In this document: positions 1 through 10,266 of the stretch, in pieces
Numbering within the stretch: the first letter of the stretch is position 1
Layout: each line of letters starts with the position of its first letter
DNA from: Actinomycetes bacterium
GTDB taxonomy: Bacteria > Actinomycetota > Coriobacteriia > WRKU01 > WQUG01
DNA: 10,266 bases
NCBI GenBank assembly: GCA_031268615.1
Contig: JAIRWZ010000101.1
Coordinates: 1-10,266 of the forward strand
Reading direction: 5' to 3'
Notes under the pieces: model-generated
Database searches by the model: none
What the model was told of the DNA's origin: nothing
The model's input: only the letters and a program-made list of their open reading frames with translations
Program-made: the position numbers and the translations under genes

Positions 1-760
1 TGACGACGCTGGCTCCGGTCGGCGTGGCCTTGAGATAGGAGATAACCACGCCAATAAAAAAGCACACAACGGATACCACAGCAGAGCAAATCGTCACACT
101 GCGAAACGTTTTGCAAAGCCGCATGGAGGTGAGCGCCGGGAAGATAATAAGGCTTGAAATGAGGAGCGCTCCCATCATCCGCATGCCTAACACGATGGTA
201 ATTGCGGTCAGAAAGGCTATCAACATGTTGTAAAGTTCGGTTTTCACGCCTGTTGCCTTCGCGAAGTTTTCATCGAAGGTGACGGCAAATATTTTGTTAT
301 AGAACAGAATGAACAGCGCCAGCACGACGACGGCAAGGACAATTGACAGCTTGACGTCAGCGGCGCTCATGGCCAGTATCGAGCCGAACAAATAGTTACA
401 CACATCCATGTTCATTCCAGTGGTCAGTGAAATGGCAATGACTCCGATGGCAAGTGAGCTGGTCGAGATGAGAGCGATGGCCGCGTCGCCCTTTATGGTG
501 CTGTTTTCGCTGATACGCAAGAGCAGAAATGCTGCCAACACCACAATGGGTATGGACACGGTAAGCGGTGCGGCATTCATTGCGGTGGCAATCGCCAACG
601 TTCCAAACCCGACATGGGACAAGCCGTCTCCGATCATCGAATAGCGCTTCAGCACGAGGCTGACGCCGAGCAGGGCGGCACAAAGCGCGACGAGCAGTCC
701 GATAATTACGGCGCGAACCAGAAAGGTATAGGAAAACATTTCGATGAGAGTGTTAAACAT
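1..760 (-). CDS. znuB: Metal ABC transporter permease, ZnuB/AdcB type (3' end outside window)
   Basis: This is the membrane subunit of an ABC-3 family importer for zinc or a related divalent metal. Reading leftward from the ATG at 760-758 gives 253 codons without a stop, so the C-terminus lies beyond base 1. The protein begins MFNTLIEMFSYTFLVRA and shows several hydrophobic segments. The family block KRYSMIGDGLSHVGFG lies near residues 38-53, and GMRMMGALLISSLIIFPAL near residues 190-210, which is typical of ABC-3 permeases. The start codon overlaps the last codons of the ATPase gene by 8 bases, indicating translational coupling in one operon. Known for the family: the permease dimer forms the transport channel energised by ZnuC and fed by ZnuA. 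Metal choice (Zn or Mn) cannot be read from this subunit. Confidence 0.93.
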   Translation of the reverse strand, partial: MFNTLIEMFSYTFLVRAVIIGLLVALCAALLGVSLVLKRYSMIGDGLSHVGFGTLAIATAMNAAPLTVSIPIVVLAAFLLLRISENSTIKGDAAIALISTSSLAIGVIAISLTTGMNMDVCNYLFGSILAMSAADVKLSIVLAVVVLALFILFYNKIFAVTFDENFAKATGVKTELYNMLIAFLTAITIVLGMRMMGALLISSLIIFPALTSMRLCKTFRSVTICSAVVSVVCFFIGVVISYLKATPTGASVV

Positions 761-1508
761 GCGCAGTCTGCTTCCCTTCGGGTAGTTTTGTTTCGGGCTG
801 TTTCGTTTCGTCTACGCCGATAAAGCGCTTGCCGATACTTGATTGTGCGTAGTCGGCGCTGCTGCCGAAAAAGGCCTGCGTGTTTTCCAGATGAAGGATA
901 TGACTGGCGTACTTGACGGCACTGTGGATGTCGTGAGACACCACCATGATGGTAAGTCCCTCGTTTTGGTTAATGTCGGCAATCAGGTGGTAGAGTTCCT
1001 GCGTCACCACCGGGTCAAGTCCCGCAACCGGTTCATCCAGCAAGAGCAGCTTTTTTGTGGCGCAGAGCGCGCGTGCCAAGAGGACTCGTTGTTGTTGGCC
1101 GCCTGATAGTTCGCGGTAGCAACGGTTCCGAAGGTTTTCAATGCCCAGACGTTGGATATTGTCTTCGGCGGCGTGTTTGTCAGCTTTTGAGTAGAACGGA
1201 GAGATACCGCGCGCGCCCATACGTCCCGACAACACAACTTCGTAGGCGCTCGCTGGAAAATCTTTCTGTGCGGCGGTTTGCTGGGGAAGGTATCCGATTT
1301 CATCGGCATGTAAGTCATCGCCCATCAAAATCCGCCCTGATTGGGGCGCCTTCAGGCGCAGAAGCCCCTTGACGAGGGTACTTTTGCCGGAGCCGTTTTC
1401 GCCGACGATACAGAGATAATCGCCGCGGCAGACCTCAAAGTTCAGGTTGCTGACGACGGTGTTACCCTCATAGGCAAAGGAAGCGTTTTGGCAGGTAATG
1501 AGCGTCAT
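753..1508 (-). CDS. znuC: Metal ABC transporter ATP-binding protein, ZnuC/AdcC type
   Basis: This cytoplasmic ATPase powers the metal importer. The 251-residue protein has every ABC landmark in order: Walker A GENGSGKST (36-44), Q-loop YLPQQ (73-77), signature LSGGQQQR (134-141), Walker B LLLLDEP (154-160), D-loop GLD (163-165) and switch histidine H192 in VVSHD. The length is normal for ZnuC. The tail after about residue 226 is charged and poorly conserved, rich in K, E, T and P. The gene starts 3 bases after the znuA stop and overlaps the permease start by 8 bases. No strong ribosome site is visible immediately upstream, which fits coupling to znuA translation. The neighbouring lipoprotein and the Fur-family regulator support metal uptake over any other ABC-3 substrate. 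Confidence 0.95.
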   Translation of the reverse strand: MTLITCQNASFAYEGNTVVSNLNFEVCRGDYLCIVGENGSGKSTLVKGLLRLKAPQSGRILMGDDLHADEIGYLPQQTAAQKDFPASAYEVVLSGRMGARGISPFYSKADKHAAEDNIQRLGIENLRNRCYRELSGGQQQRVLLARALCATKKLLLLDEPVAGLDPVVTQELYHLIADINQNEGLTIMVVSHDIHSAVKYASHILHLENTQAFFGSSADYAQSSIGKRFIGVDETKQPETKLPEGKQTAHV

Positions 1509-1511
1509 GAG

Positions 1512-2534
1512 CTAATCCAGCGCCTCTTTCAATGCTTCTACATTCCCGCTCATCAGGTCGAGGTAGGTTCGCCCTGCCTGAAAATCCTCTTTGCTGATGT
1601 TGTGGCAGGCGTGCAACAGACGCACCTTGGCTCCGGTTGCCTCTGCTATGGTGTCGGCCATTTTCTCATTACTCAGTTCGATATGAAATACGACGGGTAT
1701 TTTTTCCGCGTTAATCTTATCAATCAGGAATTTGACCGTAGCCGCGTTTGCTTCGGTCTCGGTGGAGCAGCCAGGGAAAGCAGCGAAATAGTCCAACCCG
1801 TAGGCGTCCGTGAAGTAGCGGAAGGGAAAGCGATCGCCGAAGACGATGGTCTTTCGACTGGCTTCCGCAGTGACCTGCGTAAAGGCTGCGTCCAATTCCT
1901 TAAGTTTTGTAAGGTAGGCAACCGTGTTGCTTTGGTAGGTGCCGGCATTTTCCGTATCAAGGGCGCAGAGTGCATCGGAAATCTTTTGCGTGATGAGCAT
2001 TGCATTGCGCGGGGAAGTCCAGACGTGTTCGTCGTATTCCACTTCTTCCGCTTCTGCGCCGCCTGTCTCGTCTGCTTCCTCCTCTTCTTCCTCCATGCCT
2101 TCGACGATTTCTTCTTCACGTACCTCTACACAGTCCATCAGCGTGATGACTTTCATGTGGGAGGTGTCCATAGATTCAAGAACTTCGTTTACCCACTGGT
2201 CGGATTCTCCGCCGACATAGACGAAGACATCGCAGTTCTGGATTTTGATGATGTCTTGGGGCGTTGGCTCAAAGCTGTGGCTTTCAGACGCGGGGGGCAA
2301 GAGCATGGTCACCTCTGCTTTGTCGCCCACTATCTGGCGGGTAAAGTCATACGGAGGAAAGATGGTAGTGACAACACTAAGTTTTTTGCCGCCGGGTTCC
2401 GTTGCGCTTTGGTTGGTGGCAGATTCAGACTGTCCACAGCCCGTCAGCACAAGTGCGAGTAGCAGCATTGCGATAAGCGCTAGTTTGAACAGCGCCTCGG
2501 TTGCTGCTTGGGACAGTGATGGTGATTTTCTCAT
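1512..2534 (-). CDS. znuA: Zinc/manganese-binding lipoprotein, ZnuA/AdcA type, with acidic loop
   Basis: This is the extracellular metal-binding subunit (solute-binding family 9) of the importer, 340 residues from the chosen start. The reading frame stays open upstream to 2594, but the ATG at 2534-2532 has GGAGG nine bases before it and gives a proper lipoprotein signal: basic MRKSP, a hydrophobic stretch at 16-30, and lipobox LTGC with C33. Conserved metal-site landmarks are H86 in SHSFEPTP, H170 in DEHVWTSP, and H308/H311 in LLHACHN. The position that often carries the motif HDAF reads GDRFPF (233-238), with no histidine. Between residues 139 and 168 lies a strongly acidic segment with runs of Glu, in the place where many ZnuA proteins have a His-rich loop. 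The gene follows fur by 25 bases and precedes znuC by 3. Zn is the likeliest substrate, but Mn is possible. Confidence 0.93.
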   Translation of the reverse strand: MRKSPSLSQAATEALFKLALIAMLLLALVLTGCGQSESATNQSATEPGGKKLSVVTTIFPPYDFTRQIVGDKAEVTMLLPPASESHSFEPTPQDIIKIQNCDVFVYVGGESDQWVNEVLESMDTSHMKVITLMDCVEVREEEIVEGMEEEEEEADETGGAEAEEVEYDEHVWTSPRNAMLITQKISDALCALDTENAGTYQSNTVAYLTKLKELDAAFTQVTAEASRKTIVFGDRFPFRYFTDAYGLDYFAAFPGCSTETEANAATVKFLIDKINAEKIPVVFHIELSNEKMADTIAEATGAKVRLLHACHNISKEDFQAGRTYLDLMSGNVEALKEALD

Positions 2535-2543
2535 GGGACAGAA

Positions 2544-2548
2544 CCTCC
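2544..2548 (-). promoter_or_regulatory. Ribosome binding site deciding the znuA start
   Basis: GGAGG on the minus strand lies nine bases before the ATG at 2534. It argues for this start over the upstream ATG at 2594, which would overlap the end of the fur gene and place 20 extra residues before the lipoprotein signal. Confidence 0.8.
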
Positions 2549-2559
2549 GTATTCCTGGT

Positions 2560-2970
2560 CTAAGGCTTTTCATGACAGTCTTCGCACATGCCATAAAACA
2601 CTGTTTTCATGGGATTGATTCTGAAATTATGCGAAGAAAAAACATGCTGTTCGAATTCATCGGCCTCGTTGCATTCGAGGTTGTAGAGCTTGCCGCAACC
2701 GTCACACTTCATATGAAGGCTGTCGTTTTGCGGTTCGCTGACGTAGCGATAACAGGCGCTGGGGATACCGTCTATGACCAGTTTGCGCACCCGGCCACTT
2801 TTTTCCAGCTTGTCCAGATGGCGATAGATAGTTGTCAGACCGACAGAGATTCCCCTTTTCGCAAAATGGGCGGCAATATTTTCCGGGGTCAGATAGGTAT
2901 CGGCAACACCGGAAAGATACGCCAGAATAGCCTCACCCTGTCGGGTATGGTACCTGTTTGCTCTTGTCAT
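2560..2970 (-). CDS. zur: Fur-family metalloregulator, Zur-like
   Basis: This is a winged-helix transcriptional repressor of the Fur family, 136 residues, the usual length. The recognition region VGLTTIYRHLDKLEKSG spans 43-59. The structural zinc site is complete, with C89-x-x-C92 (CDGCG) and C129-x-x-C132 (CEDC). Possible regulatory ligands are H86 in SLHMKC and H109, H114 and C100 in the dimerisation domain. The ATG at 2970 was chosen because AGGAGG lies eight bases upstream; the longer open frame to 3036 would translate through the promoter. It heads the znuACB operon, and its own promoter carries a Fur-type palindrome, so autoregulation is expected. Zn sensing (Zur) is inferred from the neighbours. 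Fur- or PerR-type specificity cannot be excluded from sequence alone. Confidence 0.93.
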   Translation of the reverse strand: MTRANRYHTRQGEAILAYLSGVADTYLTPENIAAHFAKRGISVGLTTIYRHLDKLEKSGRVRKLVIDGIPSACYRYVSEPQNDSLHMKCDGCGKLYNLECNEADEFEQHVFSSHNFRINPMKTVFYGMCEDCHEKP

Positions 2971-2978
2971 GTCGTCCA

Positions 2979-2984
2979 CCTCCT
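2979..2984 (-). promoter_or_regulatory. Ribosome binding site deciding the fur/zur start
   Basis: AGGAGG on the minus strand lies eight bases before the ATG at 2970. It fixes the start of the regulator gene at this codon. Confidence 0.85.
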
Positions 2985-2989
2985 GTCGC

Positions 2990-3012
2990 AATATGAAAAT
3001 CATTTTCATATT
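2990..3012. promoter_or_regulatory. Fur/Zur-box operator, perfect 11-1-11 palindrome
   Basis: The left arm AATATGAAAAT (2990-3000), centre C (3001) and right arm ATTTTCATATT (3002-3012) form a perfect inverted repeat. Its core TGAAAAT-C-ATTTTCA is of the 7-1-7 type known for Fur, Zur and PerR boxes. It covers the likely transcription start and part of the -10 box of the leftward promoter, the classical place for repression by metal-loaded regulator. Confidence 0.88.
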
Positions 3013-3036
3013 ATTGCTTTCCCCTCCACCTGTCAA
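3008..3036 (-). promoter_or_regulatory. Sigma-70-type promoter of the fur/zur-znuACB operon
   Basis: Read leftward, the -35 box TTGACA (3036-3031) is a perfect consensus. It is followed by a 17-base spacer and a -10 box TAATAT (3013-3008). The start is expected near 3001, giving a leader of about 30 bases before the ATG at 2970. The -10 box overlaps the palindromic operator. Confidence 0.82.
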
Positions 3037-3113
3037 CTAGGTATCGCAAACCTGCCCCGGGAGGAAGTGGGGCGAGAGGGCGGCGCGCGTGGCGGGAGCT
3101 GATACGAGCTGTA

Positions 3114-3139
3114 TTGTTGGCGGGTCTGCGTGATATGAT
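3114..3139 (+). promoter_or_regulatory. Possible valS promoter with extended -10
   Basis: TATGAT at 3134-3139 is preceded by TGA (3131-3133), an extended -10 pattern. TTGTTG at 3114-3119 is the nearest -35-like hexamer, but the spacer is only 14 bases, so the extended -10 probably carries most of the signal. A 6-bp hairpin, CAGGTG (3157-3162) with CACCTG (3176-3181), lies in the leader. No T-box signature is evident. Confidence 0.45.
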
Positions 3140-3224
3140 GGTGGGCAGCAATTTAGCAGGTGGAACGCATAGCAGCACCTGGGAATGAACAGGCAGCATA
3201 ACCGCACACAGAAACGCACAGACC

Positions 3225-3231
3225 AGAAAGG
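3225..3231 (+). promoter_or_regulatory. Ribosome binding site supporting the GTG start of valS
   Basis: AGAAAGG lies ten bases before the GTG at 3242. The alternative in-frame ATG at 3185 has no comparable purine-rich site and would add 19 residues rich in Arg, Gln and Asn that are unlike ValS N-termini. Confidence 0.55.
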
Positions 3232-3241
3232 TAACGACGCC

Positions 3242-6058
3242 GTGAGTACGCTCGATTCCCGATATGACCCAAAGACCATTGAGGCCGACATTCTGGCTTC
3301 CTGGCTGGACAGTGGGGCCTTTGCGCAAGCGGTACCTGACGAGACGGCTGCTGGTGTGGACGCGCTCACTCCGCCGTATGTCATCACCATTCCGCCGCCC
3401 AATGTCACGGGCTCGCTGCACATGGGGCATGCGCTGAACAACACGCTGCAAGACGTGTTGATTCGCAAGAACCGCATGACGGGGCGGCCAACGCGCTGGA
3501 TTGTTGGGACCGACCATGCCGGCATTGCGACGCAGAACAAGGTCGAGCAAAAGCTGGCGCGCGAGGGCAAGACGCGCTATGACGTGGGGCGCGAGGCCTT
3601 CATCGACGCCTGTTGGGAGTGGCGGCGCGAACACGGTGGGCGCATTATCGGCCAGCTGAAGGCGATGGGCTGCTCGTGCGACTTTGATGATGAATGGTTT
3701 ACGATGAACGAATCCTACCAGCGTGCGGTGCGCGAGGTGTTCGTTGACTGGTACAACAAAGGGCTGATTTATCGCGGCAATCGTATCATCAACTGGTGCC
3801 CGCGCTGTACGACCGCGCTGTCCGATATCGAGGTCGAACACGAGGACAAACCCGGCAAACTGTGGCATATCCGCTATCCCCTGGTGGGCGCGCGACCGGA
3901 CGCTGGCGGCTTTGTCTCCGGCGCCGACGCTGACCCCGACCACATCGTCATCGCCACGACGCGACCGGAGACCATGCTGGGAGACGTCGCCGTGGCCGTC
4001 CACCCCGACGACGAACGCTACGCTGACCTCATCGGCAGCGTCGTGCTGCTGCCCTTGACCAATCGCGCTATCCCCATCATCGCCGACCCCTACGTGGACC
4101 CGGCGTTTGGCACGGGTGCGGTGAAAATCACCCCGGCTCACGACGCGAACGACTTTGAAGTCGGTCAGCGCCACAATCTGGAACAAATCAACATCCTGAA
4201 CCCTGACGCCACCATCAACGAACAGGGTGGCGTGTACGCGGGTCTGGACCGTTACGCTGCGCGCGCAGAAATCCTGCGCGACCTGCAGGAAGGTGGCTAT
4301 CTGGCCGCCACCGACGACCACGACCATGCTGTGGGGGTTTGCTATCGCTGCGCCACCGAAATCGAACCCTGGCTGTCCGAGCAATGGTTCGTCGATATGA
4401 AACCCCTGGCCGCGCCCGCCATTGCCGCCGTCCGCGACGGCCGCGTCCGTTTCCACCCTGCGCGTTGGGCCGACGTCTACTTCCATTGGATGGAAAATAT
4501 TCGTGACTGGTGCATTTCGCGGCAACTGTGGTGGGGGCACCGCATTCCGGTCTTTTATTGCGACAGCTGTGGTTGGGTGAGCGCGTCCATACATGACATA
4601 ACGACCTGTCCTGAATGTGGCGCTGCCGTCCGGCAAGACGAGGACGTGCTGGACACTTGGTTTTCGTCACAGCTGTGGCCTTTTGCGACGATGGGCTGGC
4701 CTGCGGGAACGGCAGACGCTTTGCCCCCGGCGGGTACGGGTGAGCTGGCCGGAACGGAAACCGCGCAGCTGCCGGTTGTCAAGGTAGACGGGGACAAGCG
4801 CAATCGCGAGCTGGACTATTTCTATCCAACCAGCGCCTTGTCCACGGCGCGCGATATCCTGTTTCTGTGGGTGGCCCGCATGATTGTGAGCGGCCTGTAT
4901 TTCTTAGACGAGGTGCCTTTCGCTGACGTGATTATCCACCCGACGGTATTCAACAAAGAGGGTAAGCGGATGAGCAAGTCGCTGGGCACGGGTATCGACC
5001 CGTTGGACTTAATGGAAGACTATGGCGCTGATGGTATGCGTTTTGGGTTGATGCTGCAGGTCACGGGTGTGCAGGATTTGAAATTCGATGAAGACAAGCT
5101 GCTGTCGAGCAGAAACTTTGCCAATAAGATATGGAATGCCGCCCGCTTCGTGCTGATGAATGTGGATGACATAGGTCTGCAAGTTGTTCCTGCAATCTGT
5201 CCCAAGCCTGTCCAGCTGGCAGACCGCTGGATTCTGTCGCGGTTGGCAGGGCTGGCTGGCAAGGTGAGTGATGGCATCGACGGCTTTGAGTTCGGCGAGG
5301 TAGCGCGTCTGCTCTATGACTTTTTCTGGAACGAGTTCTGCGACTGGTATATCGAGTTGGCAAAAGCACGGCTGAACGGGTCGGCTGAACAGCGCGCAGA
5401 AGTCCAGCAGGTACTGCTGTACACCTTGGACCAGTCCTTGCGTTTATTACACCCGATTATGCCCTTCATTACCGAAGAGATTTGGCGCAAGCTGCCGCTG
5501 GACCGCTCTGCGGATGGCGCTATGCTCTTGCGTGCCGCCTGGCCCGATACTGAAGCCTTGGCAGCGGCTTGGGATGACCCGGACGCGGAGCGCCGTATTG
5601 AGTTACTGAAGGCGGTGGTTTCCGGTGTACGCAATCCGCGTTCTCGGTACGGCTTGAGTCCGAAAGAGCCGCTGACTGCGGTGGTCAAGGTAGCTGCCGC
5701 CGATGATGAGGCGGTGCTGTGCGAGCTGGCAGAACAAATCAAGGCTCTTGCGACAGTGTCCCGGCTGACAGTAGGCAGGGACAGCAGCAGACCCTCCCAT
5801 GCGGCGGTGACAGTAGCGGCAGGTCTGGAAATATACGTCCCACTGGAGGGCTTGGTAGACTTTGCGACGGAGGCGAAACGGCTGACGAAAACCCGCGACA
5901 AGCAGGCGACTGACCTTGCAAAGCTGGAAAAGAAACTGTCCAATCCGGGATTTTTGGAAAAAGCCGCCCCGGAAGTGATAGAAAAAGACCGCGCTCGTGC
6001 TGCAGAGCTGGCAGAAGCGGTCAGCGCACTGGACGTTCAGCTACAGGAAATTTCGTAG
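3242..6058 (+). CDS. valS: Valyl-tRNA synthetase
   Basis: This cytoplasmic class Ia enzyme charges tRNA-Val with valine. It is 938 residues from the GTG at 3242. The HIGH-class motif appears as HMGH (60-63) within PPPNVTGSLHMGHAL, and the KMSKS motif as RMSKS (576-580). The editing domain carries TTRPETMLGD. Cys pairs CDSC and CPEC form a likely zinc knuckle before VLDTWFSS. The C-terminus ends with the Lys/Glu/Ala-rich coiled-coil arm that contacts tRNA. Between GWP (485-487) and ELDYFYPT (from 523) there is a 35-residue linker where ValS proteins usually have only a few residues. The stop codon TAG falls within one end of a palindromic element. folC follows after 98 bases without an obvious promoter of its own, so co-transcription is likely. 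The start choice (3242 against 3185) is the only uncertain point. Confidence 0.95.
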   Translation: MSTLDSRYDPKTIEADILASWLDSGAFAQAVPDETAAGVDALTPPYVITIPPPNVTGSLHMGHALNNTLQDVLIRKNRMTGRPTRWIVGTDHAGIATQNKVEQKLAREGKTRYDVGREAFIDACWEWRREHGGRIIGQLKAMGCSCDFDDEWFTMNESYQRAVREVFVDWYNKGLIYRGNRIINWCPRCTTALSDIEVEHEDKPGKLWHIRYPLVGARPDAGGFVSGADADPDHIVIATTRPETMLGDVAVAVHPDDERYADLIGSVVLLPLTNRAIPIIADPYVDPAFGTGAVKITPAHDANDFEVGQRHNLEQINILNPDATINEQGGVYAGLDRYAARAEILRDLQEGGYLAATDDHDHAVGVCYRCATEIEPWLSEQWFVDMKPLAAPAIAAVRDGRVRFHPARWADVYFHWMENIRDWCISRQLWWGHRIPVFYCDSCGWVSASIHDITTCPECGAAVRQDEDVLDTWFSSQLWPFATMGWPAGTADALPPAGTGELAGTETAQLPVVKVDGDKRNRELDYFYPTSALSTARDILFLWVARMIVSGLYFLDEVPFADVIIHPTVFNKEGKRMSKSLGTGIDPLDLMEDYGADGMRFGLMLQVTGVQDLKFDEDKLLSSRNFANKIWNAARFVLMNVDDIGLQVVPAICPKPVQLADRWILSRLAGLAGKVSDGIDGFEFGEVARLLYDFFWNEFCDWYIELAKARLNGSAEQRAEVQQVLLYTLDQSLRLLHPIMPFITEEIWRKLPLDRSADGAMLLRAAWPDTEALAAAWDDPDAERRIELLKAVVSGVRNPRSRYGLSPKEPLTAVVKVAAADDEAVLCELAEQIKALATVSRLTVGRDSSRPSHAAVTVAAGLEIYVPLEGLVDFATEAKRLTKTRDKQATDLAKLEKKLSNPGFLEKAAPEVIEKDRARAAELAEAVSALDVQLQEIS

Positions 6059-6138
6059 GGGACGCCTTTCGCCCAGAGGACGATTGGCGTCAGTCAGACG
6101 GACAGCAACCCAACCTCCGGCTGTGTTGCTGTCCCTAC
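6055..6138. repeat. Palindromic element with short inverted ends, overlapping the valS stop
   Basis: GTAGGGGAC (6055-6063) and GTCCCTAC (6131-6138) are inverted with one bulged G. Inside are two stem-loops: GACGCC/GGCGTC (6061-6066 with 6086-6091) and a perfect 10-bp stem GGACAGCAAC/GTTGCTGTCC (6100-6109 with 6125-6134). Neither is followed by a T run on either strand, so intrinsic termination is not supported. The layout resembles REP- or MITE-like dispersed repeats. Copy number cannot be judged from one window. Confidence 0.6.
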
Positions 6139-6156
6139 AACGGTACGGCATAGGGT

Positions 6157-7494
6157 ATGACAGGAAACACGCACAACATAAACCCCTCTCTGGAAAACGT
6201 TGCGGCGGTGTGCGAGGCGGCCGGCAATCCGCAGCGCTCCTTCGCCGTCGTGCAGGTGGCCGGTACCAATGGCAAGACCTCGACGGCACGCCTCATCAGT
6301 GCCTTGTTGCGCGAGGAAGGACTGCGCACGGGACTCTACACCAGCCCAGAGCTGATGGATGAGACCGAGCGAATTGTCATCGACGGCACCCCGATTACCC
6401 GCAACCGTCTGGACGGTAGTCTGGCGACAGCGTGCGATGTCGCCGCTGACATTGGCATTACGCTGACGGAATTCGAACGCTACACGGTCGCCTGTTTTCT
6501 CGCCCTGCGCGCTGCTGCGGTTGACTTTGCCGTATTGGAAGTAGGGCTGGGTGGCAAGTGGGACGCGACCAGCGTAGCGCGACCAGCCGTAGCCGTCATT
6601 ACCGGCATTGCGTTGGACCACACACAACTTCTGGGTGACACCGTCGAAGAAATCGCGGCTGACAAAGCGCATATCATCAAGCCCGGCGCGACGGTAGTCT
6701 TGGGGGAAAGTGTGAGCGCTACCGCGCCCATTTTCTGCGACCGCGCCCGACAGATGGGAGCGCCAATATACGCGGTAGTCGGCGCTGATGAAACTTTTTA
6801 CGGTGGGCTTGACCCGGTATCCCGGTCCTTGCAGCCTGCCGCAAGCTGCACCAAGCAATCTACTGGCCCTGAGGGAGATTCCGGCTTGAAGGCCGGAATG
6901 ACCGACACCGCAACCTCCTATTCGGTGACAATAAGCTCTCCGTTTCTGACCACTTTTACCGTCACAACCCCTCACGCACGCTATGATGACCTGACACTAC
7001 ACGCCCCCGCCTACCAAGCCAGTAACGCCGCCACCGCCATCACCGCCGTCGAAGCCGTGCTGGGTCGCGCCCTGAACCCGGCAGCAGTGCGCGCCGCCTG
7101 CGCCACGACCACTTTTCCTGGACGCTTCGAACTCATTCGAAAGCAACCCCCGCTCATCTTTGACGGCGCGCACAACCCGCAGGCGGTCCAGCTGCTTGCC
7201 GCACAGGTCAGACAGCTTCCGTATCAGCCAACTATTGCCCTGGGTGTGTTGGCAGACAAGGACGTCAACGGGATTGTGGACGCACTCACCCCCCTCAACT
7301 GCCCCTTTATCCCCCTCACGCCCCCCAGCCCCCGCGCCCTACCCGCCCTGGAACTGGCACAGGTCATAAAAAGACGGGGAGGAACCGTAGAAAGACCTCC
7401 GACAGAATCCACCCTGAAAGAGGCAGCTACCCAACCGCTGCTCATCACCGGTAGTCTGACCCTGTATCCTCTGATTCATCTCCATATTAGTTAG
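6157..7494 (+). CDS. folC: Folylpolyglutamate synthase / dihydrofolate synthase
   Basis: This is a Mur-ligase-family enzyme that adds glutamate to folates (and, in bifunctional forms, to dihydropteroate) using ATP in the cytoplasm. It has 445 residues. Landmarks are the P-loop GTNGKTST (36-43), YTSPEL (61-66), EVGLGGKWDAT (128-138), LDHTQLLGDT (153-162), the DKAHIIK lysine region (169-175) and the C-terminal-domain motif FDGAHNP (335-341). GKTS, where many bacteria have GKGS, is typical of actinobacterial forms. A loop at about residues 219-256 is longer than usual and is encoded by DNA containing two palindromes. The ribosome site is weak (AGGG one base before the ATG), so coupling to valS transcription is likely. 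The last codons after LYPLI (HLHIS) diverge from a second decayed copy of this 3' end near 8587, suggesting that the natural terminus was replaced. Confidence 0.93.
   Translation: MTGNTHNINPSLENVAAVCEAAGNPQRSFAVVQVAGTNGKTSTARLISALLREEGLRTGLYTSPELMDETERIVIDGTPITRNRLDGSLATACDVAADIGITLTEFERYTVACFLALRAAAVDFAVLEVGLGGKWDATSVARPAVAVITGIALDHTQLLGDTVEEIAADKAHIIKPGATVVLGESVSATAPIFCDRARQMGAPIYAVVGADETFYGGLDPVSRSLQPAASCTKQSTGPEGDSGLKAGMTDTATSYSVTISSPFLTTFTVTTPHARYDDLTLHAPAYQASNAATAITAVEAVLGRALNPAAVRAACATTTFPGRFELIRKQPPLIFDGAHNPQAVQLLAAQVRQLPYQPTIALGVLADKDVNGIVDALTPLNCPFIPLTPPSPRALPALELAQVIKRRGGTVERPPTESTLKEAATQPLLITGSLTLYPLIHLHIS
6830..6899. repeat. Two palindromes inserted in frame within folC
   Basis: TGCAGC (6830-6835) pairs with GCTGCA (6845-6850), and ATTCCGGC (6878-6885) pairs perfectly with GCCGGAAT (6892-6899) across a 6-base loop. 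Together they encode part of an extra loop in FolC, including residues 241-248 (DSGLKAGM). In-frame palindromic inserts of this kind are known in other bacteria, such as Rickettsia palindromic elements; relationship to any of them is not claimed. Confidence 0.55.
7360..7476 (+). repeat. folC 3' end, upstream copy of a direct repeat
   Basis: This stretch of folC is repeated in decayed form at 8468-8587. The best-matched part, 7423-7476, aligns with 8533-8587 at 46 of 54 positions by hand count, plus one inserted T in the downstream copy. Similarity stops sharply after CTGTATCCTCTGATT (7462-7476). Confidence 0.7.
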
Positions 7495-7540
7495 AATGTG
7501 CCAATTTGTGACAACGCGAAAACGTATCAGTGGAAGGGTT

Positions 7541-7549
7541 TGATATACT
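7541..7549 (+). promoter_or_regulatory. Possible extended -10 promoter of the toxin-antitoxin-like pair
   Basis: TGA followed by TATACT (7544-7549) forms an extended -10 element. No convincing -35 hexamer lies at 16-18 bases upstream. It is 48 bases before the ATG at 7597 and is the best promoter candidate in the folC to 7597 gap. Confidence 0.4.
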
Positions 7550-7596
7550 GAAAGAGTTCGAAGACGTGAATTATGAGCAATAAGGAATGAGTGATA

Positions 7597-7782
7597 ATGA
7601 CCTTTCCAACAAAAGGTGTTTTTTGGGGAATCGCCTTTGAAGAATCTCTCCATCGTGTGGGGCCGCAAAGCGATTTCATCTATCCCTGCAGTCTACCCGG
7701 ACGGCCCGTTGCCAAGTCATTAGGAGGGCGCAGCTCCAAAAAGAATAGGCGTAGCACCGCAAAATCGCCTGTCCTGAAATGA
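7597..7782 (+). CDS. Small basic ORF upstream of the zeta-like gene, candidate antitoxin
   Basis: This 61-residue protein has a basic C-terminal half (LGGRSSKKNRR). I do not recognise a family. The ATG at 7597 has AAGGA ten bases upstream; the GTG at 7591 is an alternative but would be only four bases from that site. Its stop overlaps the zeta-like gene as ATGA, the coupling typical of toxin-antitoxin pairs in which the antitoxin is made first. A T6 run lies at 7610-7615. A different frame upstream of it, beginning at the ATG at 7588, would join this frame if one T were absent, so a different true N-terminus or a slippage site cannot be excluded. Antitoxin function is inferred only from position and coupling. 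Confidence 0.55.
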   Translation: MTFPTKGVFWGIAFEESLHRVGPQSDFIYPCSLPGRPVAKSLGGRSSKKNRRSTAKSPVLK

Positions 7783-8387
7783 AGGGGTATCGACCACGAT
7801 TACTTGTTGTTTTGGGACCGAACGGTTCAGGGAAATCCTCAATCTTTTCCGAACTACTGACGGTTTATACGTCTTCTGGTCTGGAGTTCTTCAATCCTGA
7901 TATCGTGGGAAAGGTCTATTTTTCTGACGTTTCGAATGACATTGAACGGTCGAAACGAGCAATACTTTGGTGTGGCCGACAACAAAAACGATGTCTTGCA
8001 AATCGGTGTTCGTTCGGGCTGGAAACGGTTGGAGCCAGCATTGGTTCTTTGCGAATAGTTCAACGTGCGCGTAATGCTGACTATTATATTGAGTTACTTT
8101 TTGTATCGACAGAAAGTCCCGAAATCAACCTGCGGCGCATTGCGGAACGGGTTGAACGAGGTGGGCATTGGGTTGAACCAGAAACAGTAAAAAGGCGGTA
8201 TCGTCAGGTTATGGAACGCTTGCCGGAATACTTATTTCTGGCAGATGAAATCACTGTTGTGGATAACTCACGGGATGGCGTGGGAAGAGCGCGCGCTCTA
8301 CTGCGAAAAGATTGCGACGGGGTAACGATTACCGCTGACGGCCAAGGTGTCGGCTGGTTGCAAAAATACTTGCCCGGATACTTTTAG
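7779..8387 (+). CDS. Zeta-toxin-type P-loop kinase
   Basis: This 202-residue P-loop protein resembles the zeta toxin domain family. Walker A is GPNGSGKSS (13-21), followed by NPD (39-41), FGLET (79-83), and the arginine/glycine block RRIAERVERGGHWV (119-132), close to the R..RV..GGH.V pattern of stand-alone zeta-like proteins. VVDNS (160-164) lies near the C-terminal end of the kinase core. Known zeta/PezT toxins phosphorylate UDP-N-acetyl sugars and block wall synthesis; whether this protein does so is inference. The ATG overlaps the stop of the small upstream ORF (ATGA) and has no strong ribosome site, so translation is probably coupled. The gene is bracketed by two copies of the folC 3' end, which suggests that the pair arrived as a cassette. 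An uncharacterised nucleotide kinase is the main alternative. Confidence 0.82.
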   Translation: MKGYRPRLLVVLGPNGSGKSSIFSELLTVYTSSGLEFFNPDIVGKVYFSDVSNDIERSKRAILWCGRQQKRCLANRCSFGLETVGASIGSLRIVQRARNADYYIELLFVSTESPEINLRRIAERVERGGHWVEPETVKRRYRQVMERLPEYLFLADEITVVDNSRDGVGRARALLRKDCDGVTITADGQGVGWLQKYLPGYF

Positions 8388-8467
8388 CGCCAATGCCCTT
8401 TCAGGTGCGCGGACTTTGAAGTAAGAGTTAGTCGCCCTGAGATATTGGCTCCCGCAGACTTTATGGC

Positions 8468-8587
8468 GAGGTAGTAAAGGGGTGAGTACGTCCAGACCTG
8501 CATGAATGGACGCGCTCGCTCATTTTCAAATAGCAGCCACTCAAGCGCTGCTTATTTACTGGTAGTCTGGCGCTGTATCCTCTGATT
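8468..8587 (+). pseudogene. Decayed second copy of the folC 3' end
   Basis: Translation in pieces gives EVVKG, STSRP, then AATQALLI and, after a one-base shift, TGSLALYPLI. These match QVIKR, VERP, AATQPLLI and TGSLTLYPLI at the end of FolC. In-frame stops and indels show that it is not expressed as FolC. Weaker similarity may begin as far up as 8394 (MPF against CPF). It has no 5' part of folC and no start codon of its own. It begins soon after the zeta-like gene stop and its end runs into the xre gene on the other strand. It is either the original chromosomal 3' end displaced by integration or a duplicate left by recombination. Confidence 0.72.
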
Positions 8588-8843
8588 GTTGCGGTTGCTG
8601 CCTGTCGGTGGCTCTTGGGTATTGCAGCAAAGAGGAAACATCAACATTTAGCGCAATCGCGATATTGAGGAGCGTTTTCATACTGGGCGCTCGTACTCCC
8701 TGTTCAATGTAGCCGATGGACACACGATCCAGCCCCACTTTTTGGGCGAGTGCTTCTTGTGACAGTTTCCGACACTTCCGGACAGACTGAATCTGTGCGC
8801 CCAGTTGACGTAAAAATAGCTTGTAATCGCAATCCTGAATCAT
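8556..8843 (-). CDS. XRE/Cro-CI family transcriptional repressor
   Basis: This 95-residue DNA-binding protein is a single helix-turn-helix domain. The HTH spans about residues 12-66, with QIQSVRKCRKLSQEALAQKVG, then VSIGYIEQGVRAPSMKTLLNIA, and the usual hydrophobic end ALNVDVSSLL. The tail after residue 74 is Gln/Asp-rich and has no domain. Its last codons, SEDTAPDYQ, are read antisense through the decayed folC copy, so this tail was probably acquired by chance. The gene is divergent from the secreted-peptide locus. The shared intergenic space has three operator-like palindromes, which suggests control of its own transcription and of the rightward promoter. No strong ribosome site precedes the ATG at 8843. 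The small size fits a Cro/SinR-like repressor without an effector domain. Confidence 0.87.
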   Translation of the reverse strand: MIQDCDYKLFLRQLGAQIQSVRKCRKLSQEALAQKVGLDRVSIGYIEQGVRAPSMKTLLNIAIALNVDVSSLLQYPRATDRQQPQQSEDTAPDYQ

Positions 8844-8852
8844 AGCTAAAAC

Positions 8853-8870
8853 ATAAACTACCAGTTAGCA
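8853..8870. promoter_or_regulatory. Operator-like site O3 (degenerate left half)
   Basis: Left half ATAAAC (8853-8858), 5-base spacer TACCA and right half GTTAGCA (8864-8870). This is the site nearest the xre start and would block its transcription if bound. Only the right half is a good match to O1. Confidence 0.45.
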
Positions 8871-8876
8871 AACAAC

Positions 8877-8895
8877 CACTAACAATCAGTTTGCA
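8877..8895. promoter_or_regulatory. Operator-like site O2 over the -35 box
   Basis: Left half CACTAAC (8877-8883), 5-base spacer AATCA and right half GTTTGCA (8889-8895). It overlaps the -35 hexamer TTGCAA of the rightward promoter. CAGTTTGCAAAG (8887-8898) is also a near direct repeat of CAGTTAGCAAAC (8862-8873). Confidence 0.6.
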
Positions 8896-8919
8896 AAGTC
8901 CCGCGTAGTGAGTTATTAT
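8891..8919 (+). promoter_or_regulatory. Rightward promoter of the secreted-peptide locus
   Basis: -35 TTGCAA (8891-8896), 17-base spacer and -10 TATTAT (8914-8919). The start is expected near 8926, inside operator O1. AAGGGGAG lies just before the ATG at 8972. Confidence 0.65.
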
Positions 8920-8938
8920 GCTAACTAATAGTTAGCAT
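8918..8938. promoter_or_regulatory. Operator-like site O1, perfect 8-5-8 palindrome
   Basis: ATGCTAAC (8918-8925), spacer TAATA and GTTAGCAT (8931-8938) form a perfect inverted repeat. It covers the -10 edge and start site of the rightward promoter, the position expected for a repressor such as the adjacent XRE protein. Confidence 0.75.
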
Positions 8939-8971
8939 TAGTGTGACACTTGCGAGAGAAAGGGGAGTAGT

Positions 8972-9188
8972 ATGCGAAGGGCTGCAGTTATTGTTTTGAT
9001 GTGTGTCTGTTTGCTCTTATCATTAGCAGCGACTGCTCATGCTGCGGGTAAGACCGTCCCTATGAGTTTCGGCGTAGGCAACGTAGCAGTCGCAAAAACC
9101 ATTCGTTAGCGGAACCATAAAAATCGAAATGACCCATACGGCATTTGACGCGAAAAGAACGACGACGGTTGGGGGTTTGAGCTGGTAA
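8972..9188 (+). pseudogene. Small secreted peptide gene with a one-base frameshift
   Basis: The intact frame from the ATG at 8972 ends at 9109 and gives 45 residues. It has a clear Sec signal: MRRAAVIVLMCVCLLLSLAA, then ATAHA before a likely cleavage site and AGKTVPMSFG. At the A5 run 9094-9098, removing one A would join this frame to a second open stretch that continues KPFVSGTIKIEMTHTAF to a stop at 9186-9188, giving about 71 residues that end in TTTVGGLSW. This looks like a recent frameshift, a sequencing error, or slippage-controlled expression. Upstream are a purine-rich AAGGGGAG and a promoter under operator-like sites. The mature peptide would be 45-50 residues. I do not recognise the family. 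It has no cysteines in the mature part and is not a clear lantibiotic or lactococcin 972-type peptide. Confidence 0.6.
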
Positions 9189-9278
9189 GGAAGGCAGCGC
9201 ACTAGTCGCAATGTCTAGCTTGAGCCAGTCAACTGTTGGAAATTTGTAAATTTATAGGGAAAGGAAAGGCATAAAGTG

Positions 9279-9698
9279 ATGAAACATTCAAAAATAATTG
9301 TGGGCATTCTTCTTCTGATGGTATTTTTCATAATTCCTGCCAGCGGATACGCACATGATGTTTCCGGGACAAAGAAAACAACAGCCGTGGCCGGGACGGT
9401 AAAGAATTGGAAATGGACTATCAAAAATCACCGAATAGGCGGATATGCGTCTGGACAGAATCAGGGTAACGCCCACCCTATGCAAATTCGCATGCAAGCT
9501 TATCGAAATATCGGCATTACACTTTCTTGGTCAACGTATGCAACAATTCAAGCAGGAAAAACAGGAAAAACAGCAGTACGATTAGGCTGCAAAGCGCCTT
9601 GGACTTTTGGCAACCATCCGTTTCGTGCATGGATTAACCCAGCGGCGGCACTATCGCCGTGGACTGGATACGCAAACGCAGTCCAAACAAATTTCTAA
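9279..9698 (+). CDS. Secreted Trp-rich protein of unknown family
   Basis: This 139-residue protein has an N-terminal signal: MKHSK, a hydrophobic core IIVGILLLMVFFII, then PASGYAHD with likely cleavage near YA/HD. The mature part has six tryptophans spread through it (NWKW, LSWSTY, APWTFG, RAWINP, SPWTGY), one cysteine (RLGCKAP) and many Gly, Thr and Asn residues, suggesting a compact beta-rich fold. GGAAAGG nine bases before supports the ATG at 9279; the GTG at 9276 is an alternative. It follows the broken small secreted ORF by 90 bases and precedes a membrane-protein gene by 104 bases. No family is recognised. A bacteriocin-like or surface-acting secreted peptide is possible, and the adjacent membrane protein could then give immunity or export. 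Both ideas are inference from order alone. Confidence 0.75.
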   Translation: MKHSKIIVGILLLMVFFIIPASGYAHDVSGTKKTTAVAGTVKNWKWTIKNHRIGGYASGQNQGNAHPMQIRMQAYRNIGITLSWSTYATIQAGKTGKTAVRLGCKAPWTFGNHPFRAWINPAAALSPWTGYANAVQTNF

Positions 9699-9699
9699 G

Positions 9700-9729
9700 T
9701 TGTTTTAATAGGTTATATAGAGCTATAGT
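9700..9729 (+). promoter_or_regulatory. Possible promoter before the membrane-protein gene
   Basis: -35 TTGTTT (9700-9705), 18-base spacer and -10 TATAGT (9724-9729), directly after the stop of the secreted-protein gene. The start would be near 9736, placing the hairpin 9732-9767 at the very 5' end of the transcript. Confidence 0.45.
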
Positions 9730-9731
9730 GT

Positions 9732-9767
9732 GGAGTGCGTCTGTGCTGCAAAAGATGGACGCACTTC
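9732..9767 (+). other. Stem-loop in the 5' leader of the membrane-protein gene
   Basis: AGTGCGTC (9734-9741) pairs perfectly with GACGCACT (9758-9765), extended by a G-U and a G-C pair, around a 16-base loop. There is no following T run, so it is not a standard terminator. A leader or RNA-stabilising role is possible. Confidence 0.45.
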
Positions 9768-9802
9768 GGTGAAGAATGTAGCAGGGAAATTTTCGAGAGA
9801 GG

Positions 9803-10266
9803 ATGGGTGTACAAAAAATGCCTTTTAGAAAACTTGCTGTCAATAGTTTACGGACTTTTGCAATTCAGGGGATAGTGCTTGTGATTGCTTTGCCTTTTGT
9901 CGCAATATCACTTAGCACTATGTTTCCTGTGGCTCTTGTTGGGCCGATTGTATATGTATTCCTTGGCTACAAGTTCCTGTACCCTCTTCCAAAGTATAAT
10001 TGGCTTTCAGTGATGAGCCTACTGATATTTTTTGGGCTACTTTTTGGTGTCTATTACATCGTAGGCCCTATCCCCGGCAACGATGAGGGTTTTTTTACTG
10101 GTATTAATTCACCCACTGGTCTTGTGCTTCTGTTTAACTATCAGGCAACCATGTTGGTTATTACGGTGGTTGCGTATTTTGATGCTTTTTTAAATTTTCT
10201 CGCGGGGAATAGCTCGTTTATTCCTAAGGATTTTTTTGGAAATGATCTTCCATTTATGACATATAT
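9803..10266 (+). CDS. Polytopic membrane protein of unknown function (3' end outside window)
   Basis: From the ATG at 9803 the frame stays open for 154 codons to the window end. The product begins MGVQKMPFRKLAVNSL and has about four hydrophobic segments, near residues 19-40 (IQGIVLVIALPF), 42-58, 68-86 (LLIFFGLLFGVYY) and 105-130 (GLVLLFNYQ to AYFDAFLNF). The ATG at 9818 (MPFRKL) is a possible start; GAGAGAGG lies directly before 9803, an unusually short spacing. The coding region is AT-rich compared with valS. I recognise no family. It follows the secreted-protein gene, so an immunity, export or anchoring partner is conceivable. The visible N-terminal part shows no ATP-binding motif and no enzyme signature. 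Confidence 0.7.
   Translation, partial: MGVQKMPFRKLAVNSLRTFAIQGIVLVIALPFVAISLSTMFPVALVGPIVYVFLGYKFLYPLPKYNWLSVMSLLIFFGLLFGVYYIVGPIPGNDEGFFTGINSPTGLVLLFNYQATMLVITVVAYFDAFLNFLAGNSSFIPKDFFGNDLPFMTY

Follow-up and report, generated by a model that had tools for sequence, protein, structure and literature searches.

A probable tandem genomic island at the 3' end of folC in an Actinomycetes bacterium, with a zeta-toxin-like segment resembling a cis-mobilizable element

Tyrosine integrases usually need about 7 bp of identity between their sites, according to the text available for PMC10111431, which also reports identity blocks of up to ∼250 bp where an island brings a replacement gene end, and three similar att sites as normal in tandem islands. 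Cis-mobilizable elements (CIMEs) are described, in the accessible part of PMC7563491, as att-flanked segments that lack recombination genes and have accreted in tandem at housekeeping-gene 3' ends. The classical CIMEs of Streptococcus salivarius reported there carry cargo and span 1.2–13 kb, and in 37 composite islands CIMEs were always located furthest from the target gene.

The window analysed here, a stretch of 10,266 nucleotides, is contig C116 of a draft genome of 1.07 Mb (157 contigs, 62% complete). An earlier note, made from the letters of this window, had described a zeta-toxin cassette bracketed by two copies of the folC 3' end. We consider it likely that an acquired island resides in the 3' end of folC, bounded by direct repeats of the tyrosine-recombinase type, and that it is most likely a tandem structure whose zeta part is CIME-like. 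The earlier note had thus probably recognised a true integration footprint, but this footprint marks an inner boundary, and the island to which it belongs is larger and probably tandem. The features, in window coordinates unless stated, are as follows.

6157..7494, + strand: folC, the putative target gene (Mur ligase domains); comparison of its C-terminus with 12 relatives indicates that the island side now supplies the last codons, those following YPL
7423..7476, + strand: attL-like copy of the folC end, comprising a 51-bp block (7423-7473) identical to C37:5425-5475 and ATT common with the internal copy (alignments)
7477..8532, no strand: zeta segment; the two site copies enclose 1056 bp with 47.7% GC and no integrase ORF (ORFs, composition)
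7591..7782, + strand: small ORF, candidate antitoxin, 63 aa from GTG or 61 aa from the ATG at 7597
7779..8387, + strand: zeta-toxin-like protein, 202 aa (PF06414 above cut-off; conserved motifs)
8402..8532, + strand: right-end sequence common with C37:5476-5605, directly before a folC-end copy in both places
8483..8500, + strand: copy of the dispersed repeat TGAGTACGTCCAGACCTG inside the right-end sequence (genome scan)
8533..8587, + strand: internal (attI-like) folC-end copy (alignments)
8556..8843, − strand: HTH regulator, first gene of the second segment (PF01381, E 1.5e-12)
9276..9698, + strand: secreted-type ORF of the second segment, 140 aa, with no Pfam or NCBIfam match
9803..10266, + strand: membrane-type ORF cut by the contig end (ORF list)
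Contig C37, continuation: ABC ATPase, PASTA protein, right-end sequence, putative native folC end, gene X and thrS

The satellite islands of fis, as presented in the available text of PMC10111431, consist of two tandem units delimited by three related att sites, and by analogy the three related sites found here are the layout of tandem site-specific integration. A long identity block is also possible in both cases, when the island supplies the gene end. The fis islands differ in their cargo and, unlike the present one, in which no integrase is seen, encode tyrosine integrases. In structure, the zeta segment resembles the S. salivarius CIMEs of PMC7563491, at least as far as the accessible part describes them: it has att-like repeats, no recombination genes, a tandem arrangement and a location at a housekeeping-gene 3' end. 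It measures ∼1.06 kb from site to site, or 1.17 kb when both sites are counted, against the 1.2–13 kb reported there. The targets of the CIMEs are rpmG, rpsI, fda or rplL, whereas here the target is folC, and neither an ICE or IME partner nor a parent element can be seen. In addition, the zeta segment adjoins folC instead of lying furthest from it, which counts against our model.

Local alignment of 7423-7476 with 8533-8587 showed identity in 46 of 55 columns, with a 1-nt insertion in the second copy, and a score of 36 that was equalled by none of 500 shuffles (mean 7.3, sd 1.33). A search of the genome with its own folC end recovered the same copy at 84% identity (E 1.8e-9). This part of the repeat proposed by the earlier note therefore stands and, as had been stated, both copies continue through CTGATT and diverge directly after it. 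The repeat was, however, said to begin at 7360; the left parts, 7360-7422 and 8468-8532, gave a score of only 6, and 463 of 500 shuffles were as good, which rules out the leftward extension and places the true start at 7423.

A third folC-end copy was found by same-genome search at C37:5425-5475, identical to window 7423-7473 at all 51 positions, against a longest match of ∼14 bases expected by chance between C116 and C37. Direct repeats reproducing the 3' end of the target gene, as characterise a site-specific island, are therefore seen at both predicted island ends. The internal copy begins at the same folC base as the C37 copy and shares its CTGATT tail with window folC; C37 has CTGTTA at this point. 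Of the eight substitutions in the internal copy, six are at third codon positions (p ∼0.02 by a binomial estimate), suggesting that it was a coding folC end before it received its 1-nt insertion. All three copies share identical stretches of 7 bp or more, among them the final 12 bases of the block, and an exchange core of the usual kind is therefore possible.

We then examined gene order in 13 relatives from the same family or order (G001-G013). Twelve with folC were fetched for comparison, and the thirteenth, G004, a 59%-complete genome with one marginal match, was left out. In all 12, valS precedes folC and a gene termed X follows it; thrS comes after X in 11, and the contig of the twelfth starts at X. 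The site thus appears uninterrupted in relatives, with X directly after folC in nine and after ∼1.6 kb in three (G010, G012 and G013). These three also have other FolC endings, and count against our model; the gap holds two ORFs in G010 and in G013. In the draft genome, X occurs once, on C37, where the folC-end piece is followed by X and then thrS. The product of X is a zinc-ribbon protein with a membrane-type N-terminus.

Window folC ends in YPLIHLHIS. When folC is read through the 51-bp block into C37, the translation gives TGSLTLYPLLQS and 17 more residues, and a YPLLQS ending is restored. This ending is exact in three of the 12 relatives (G001, G003 and G006), and its general form, Y-x-L-[LI]-[QK]-S, is present in all but G010, G012 and G013. 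Because relatives have the order valS-folC-X and the joined frame ends in YPLLQS, the C37 piece is, on gene order and reading frame, the native folC end, and the DNA that now follows window folC is foreign there. This rules out the view that 8533-8587 is the host's old folC end, in favour of the C37 copy; the window copy is best read as internal. Integration at the folC 3' end, with direct-repeat boundaries and a changed folC terminus, is on the other hand supported. The earlier note had suggested comparing folC ends and downstream DNA in relatives, and held that zeta-less relatives with a folC remnant would speak against it; the 12 relatives have X after folC and carry no such remnant.

The draft is incomplete, at 62% and in 157 contigs, and contigs could in principle have been misjoined at the shared 51-bp stretch. 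Swapping the partners, however, gives an empty folC-X site and a circular joint, and an element bearing a folC end is still required. Moreover, the internal copy and its right-end sequence lie within one contig, and X is single in this genome and a member of the folC gene group. We hold such an artefact to be very improbable. The main conclusion does not depend on how the contigs were joined at the 51-bp repeat, since the swap still needs the folC-end element and the internal copy is contained in one contig. In the preferred reading, an island in folC, the two contigs would be joined through an unsequenced middle; no contig-end overlap joins the island halves, as neither the C116 nor the C37 end overlaps another contig.

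Since C37 holds the native folC end, an AT-richer island, as judged by its sequence, is located between folC and X and bounded by the 51-bp direct repeat. The earlier note had taken the insertion for a single cassette, but the inserted DNA carries on past 8587 to the contig end and resumes on C37. GC content is 47.7% in the zeta segment, 44.0% in 8588-10266 and 47.6% in the C37 DNA before the right-end sequence, as compared to 56.7% in 1-7422, 61.0% in folC and 55.8% from X to pheS. Third-position GC is 65–73% in valS, folC, X and thrS, and 36–54% in six island genes.

The HTH gene runs on the opposite strand and terminates within the internal folC-end copy, so that its last codons are antisense folC sequence. 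A protein search with the secreted-type ORF (9276-9698) returned only the ORF itself. This ORF, the membrane-type ORF that follows it and the partial ABC ATPase on C37 all belong to the second segment (stretches 9276-10266 and C37:5634-7287, locus L043), and together they may represent an export cluster of bacteriocin-like type. A lactococcin-972-type exporter was the second-best NCBIfam match of the ATPase, at 106 bits and below cut-off. The PASTA-domain protein is encoded on the C37 side of the island.

The internal and the C37 folC-end copies are both preceded by one and the same ∼130-bp sequence, whereas in the intact gene the third copy is preceded by the rest of folC. The match of 8402-8584 to C37 covers 161 of 184 positions, site included, which by subtraction leaves ∼89% identity for the right-end sequence alone. 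Its score of 103 was reached by none of 500 shuffles (mean 9.4). The left ends of the two segments show no similarity (448 of 500 shuffles as good). Within the right-end sequence, TGAGTACGTCCAGACCTG is a dispersed repeat, present at 117 places in the genome at up to 2 mismatches, against 2 for a reversed control, and it is this repeat that occurs in the left part claimed for the downstream folC-end copy. The dispersed repeat often forms an inverted pair, and occurs at 0 to 7 places in 8 other family genomes.

Both folC-end pieces that lie apart from the gene have a copy of this repeat no more than 40 bases away, and for this reason rearrangement or copying by a REP-like dispersed repeat, carrying folC-end fragments along, was considered. 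The intact folC end, however, has no adjoining repeat copy, and among 36 distinct repeat copies compared, only these two adjoin folC-end sequence. No Y1 transposase gene (PF01797) was found in the 62%-complete genome. We therefore give this explanation very little credence.

Campbell-type homologous recombination, in which circular DNA with a folC 3' fragment enters by a single crossover without a dedicated recombinase, perhaps twice, would yield the same direct repeats and agrees with the lack of a visible integrase in the island. A stretch of 51 bp is, however, short for efficient homologous recombination, and the two segments share one right-end sequence and stop at the same folC base. The site also falls right where the coding region ends, the position usual for integrases according to the accessible part of PMC7563491. 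Taken together, these observations render the Campbell-type route improbable, and we favour the action of a site-specific recombinase, which would account for the repeats.

If the whole island circularised, TTCATCTCCA would flank the block on both sides (0 of 2000 shuffles as good). These putative recombinase-binding repeats are only a hint, because they were noticed post hoc and an arm repeat of this type was not seen left of the internal site (662 of 2000 shuffles as good). An Rfam search returned nothing at gathering score, the single-strand fold of 8380-8600 was not unusual (z −0.54), and a promoter and terminator scan of 7400-9000 gave results near chance.

The zeta gene and the small ORF were the only genes recognised between the two window repeats (7423-7476 and 8533-8587), in agreement with the antitoxin-like and zeta-like genes that the earlier note had placed there. 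As had also been noted, no integrase is present among the ORFs between the two window copies. The segment would therefore, from its predicted genes, be att-flanked and devoid of recombination and transfer genes, as is a cis-mobilizable element. The zeta-like protein matches PF06414 just above the cut-off (E 4e-5, 23.6 bits against 22.3). Its P-loop, GPNGSGKS, and other motifs are invariant in 11 aligned sequences, window protein included, indicating a predicted zeta-toxin kinase domain with a P-loop.

As in the zeta-toxin family, a small ORF precedes the toxin-like gene and overlaps it, its stop lying within the start of the zeta gene (ATGA). Differences from that family are the absence of a Pfam match for the small ORF and the distance of the closest other protein found, which is 60% identical and lies on a 1.9-kb contig. 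The small ORF resembles the ORF directly upstream of the zeta gene of G010, with a score of 63 where shuffles averaged 24.9 and none of 1000 was as good; BLASTP was not significant (E 1.9). We infer that the zeta gene and the ORF upstream may act as a toxin-antitoxin pair. Relatives of the zeta protein were few, amounting to 22 proteins, and were present in 4 of 59 genomes, its own included in both counts.

No integrase was found in the visible parts of the island; its middle, and 38% of the genome, are missing from the assembly. The assembly has two PF00589 genes, both on other contigs and neither linked to the island. The absence of a linked recombinase is the chief gap in our model, against which also speak the unlike left ends of the two segments, the arm repeat missing left of the internal site, the lack of a physical join between C116 and C37 and the failure to find a second case. 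One of the two genes appears Xer-like and is located at the end of C140. The other, on C88 (locus L190, 7851-8882), is a lone tyrosine recombinase gene near the contig end, encoding 343 aa, which matched XerD best but far below cut-off; the genes beside it look like multihaem cytochromes. A bolder reading, in which folC is a previously unrecognised attachment gene for a family of islands in this lineage, and the zeta pair a minimal integrase-less passenger with an att end that borrows its neighbour's recombinase and, after accretion, renders the entire composite addictive to the host, appears to us rather doubtful.

The earlier note had also suggested a small recurrent module. We surveyed 119 folC loci, of which 116 were examined and three (L120, L130 and L137) skipped on account of short downstream DNA. 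The loci come from overlapping sets and do not represent 116 genomes; each had 0.5 to 8 kb downstream, and the survey was confined to direct matches of the final 180 bases with E ≤ 0.01. Among the 115 loci other than that of the window, we accepted no comparable duplication of the folC end. The match at L125 (E 1e-5) was rejected as an end duplication, as it arises from two adjacent folC-like genes that share a TGSLY motif. This locus (3662-6218), from Lysinibacillus yapensis, has the two genes after valS and mimics an end duplication. Weak matches were seen at L092 (E 0.008) and L135 (E 0.002).

A FolC search of 59 genomes gave, among the matches listed (to E ∼8e-4, under a limit of 1e-3), only one confined to the protein end, that on C37. 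A zeta relative was found in none of the 8 other family genomes at E ≤ 0.001. In viral contigs, neither the core nor the repeat patterns were matched exactly and no zeta relative was found, and 549 plasmid records had zeta relatives, all below 60% identity. Among genome contigs with FolC, 77 loci were retrieved, none from a near relative, with a best identity of 45% over the best segment. Recurrence of a folC module is thus unsupported. The mechanism proposed is of a known kind, and folC as an attachment gene was not found in print in the searches made, which covered open-licence papers.

We propose that an island entered the 3' end of folC, between folC and X, and would have left 51-bp direct repeats in the fashion of a tyrosine recombinase. 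The third, diverged repeat would divide the island into a small zeta segment beside folC and a second segment. The island probably settled in two steps, and two insertions, in one order or the other, would give an accreted composite in which the zeta part would act as a cis-mobilizable element. The zeta gene and its upstream ORF would, as an addiction module, help the host to retain the island.

This locus is likely a new protein-gene attachment site for islands, with boundaries defined to the base, in a poorly sampled lineage that is apparently Coriobacteriia. It also indicates that, with conserved gene order as a guide to where the end of the target gene was stranded, an island can be traced to both of its ends even in a fragmentary assembly. 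Should the zeta pair indeed anchor the island, it would be a very small example of an addiction module that travels as a segment of its own.
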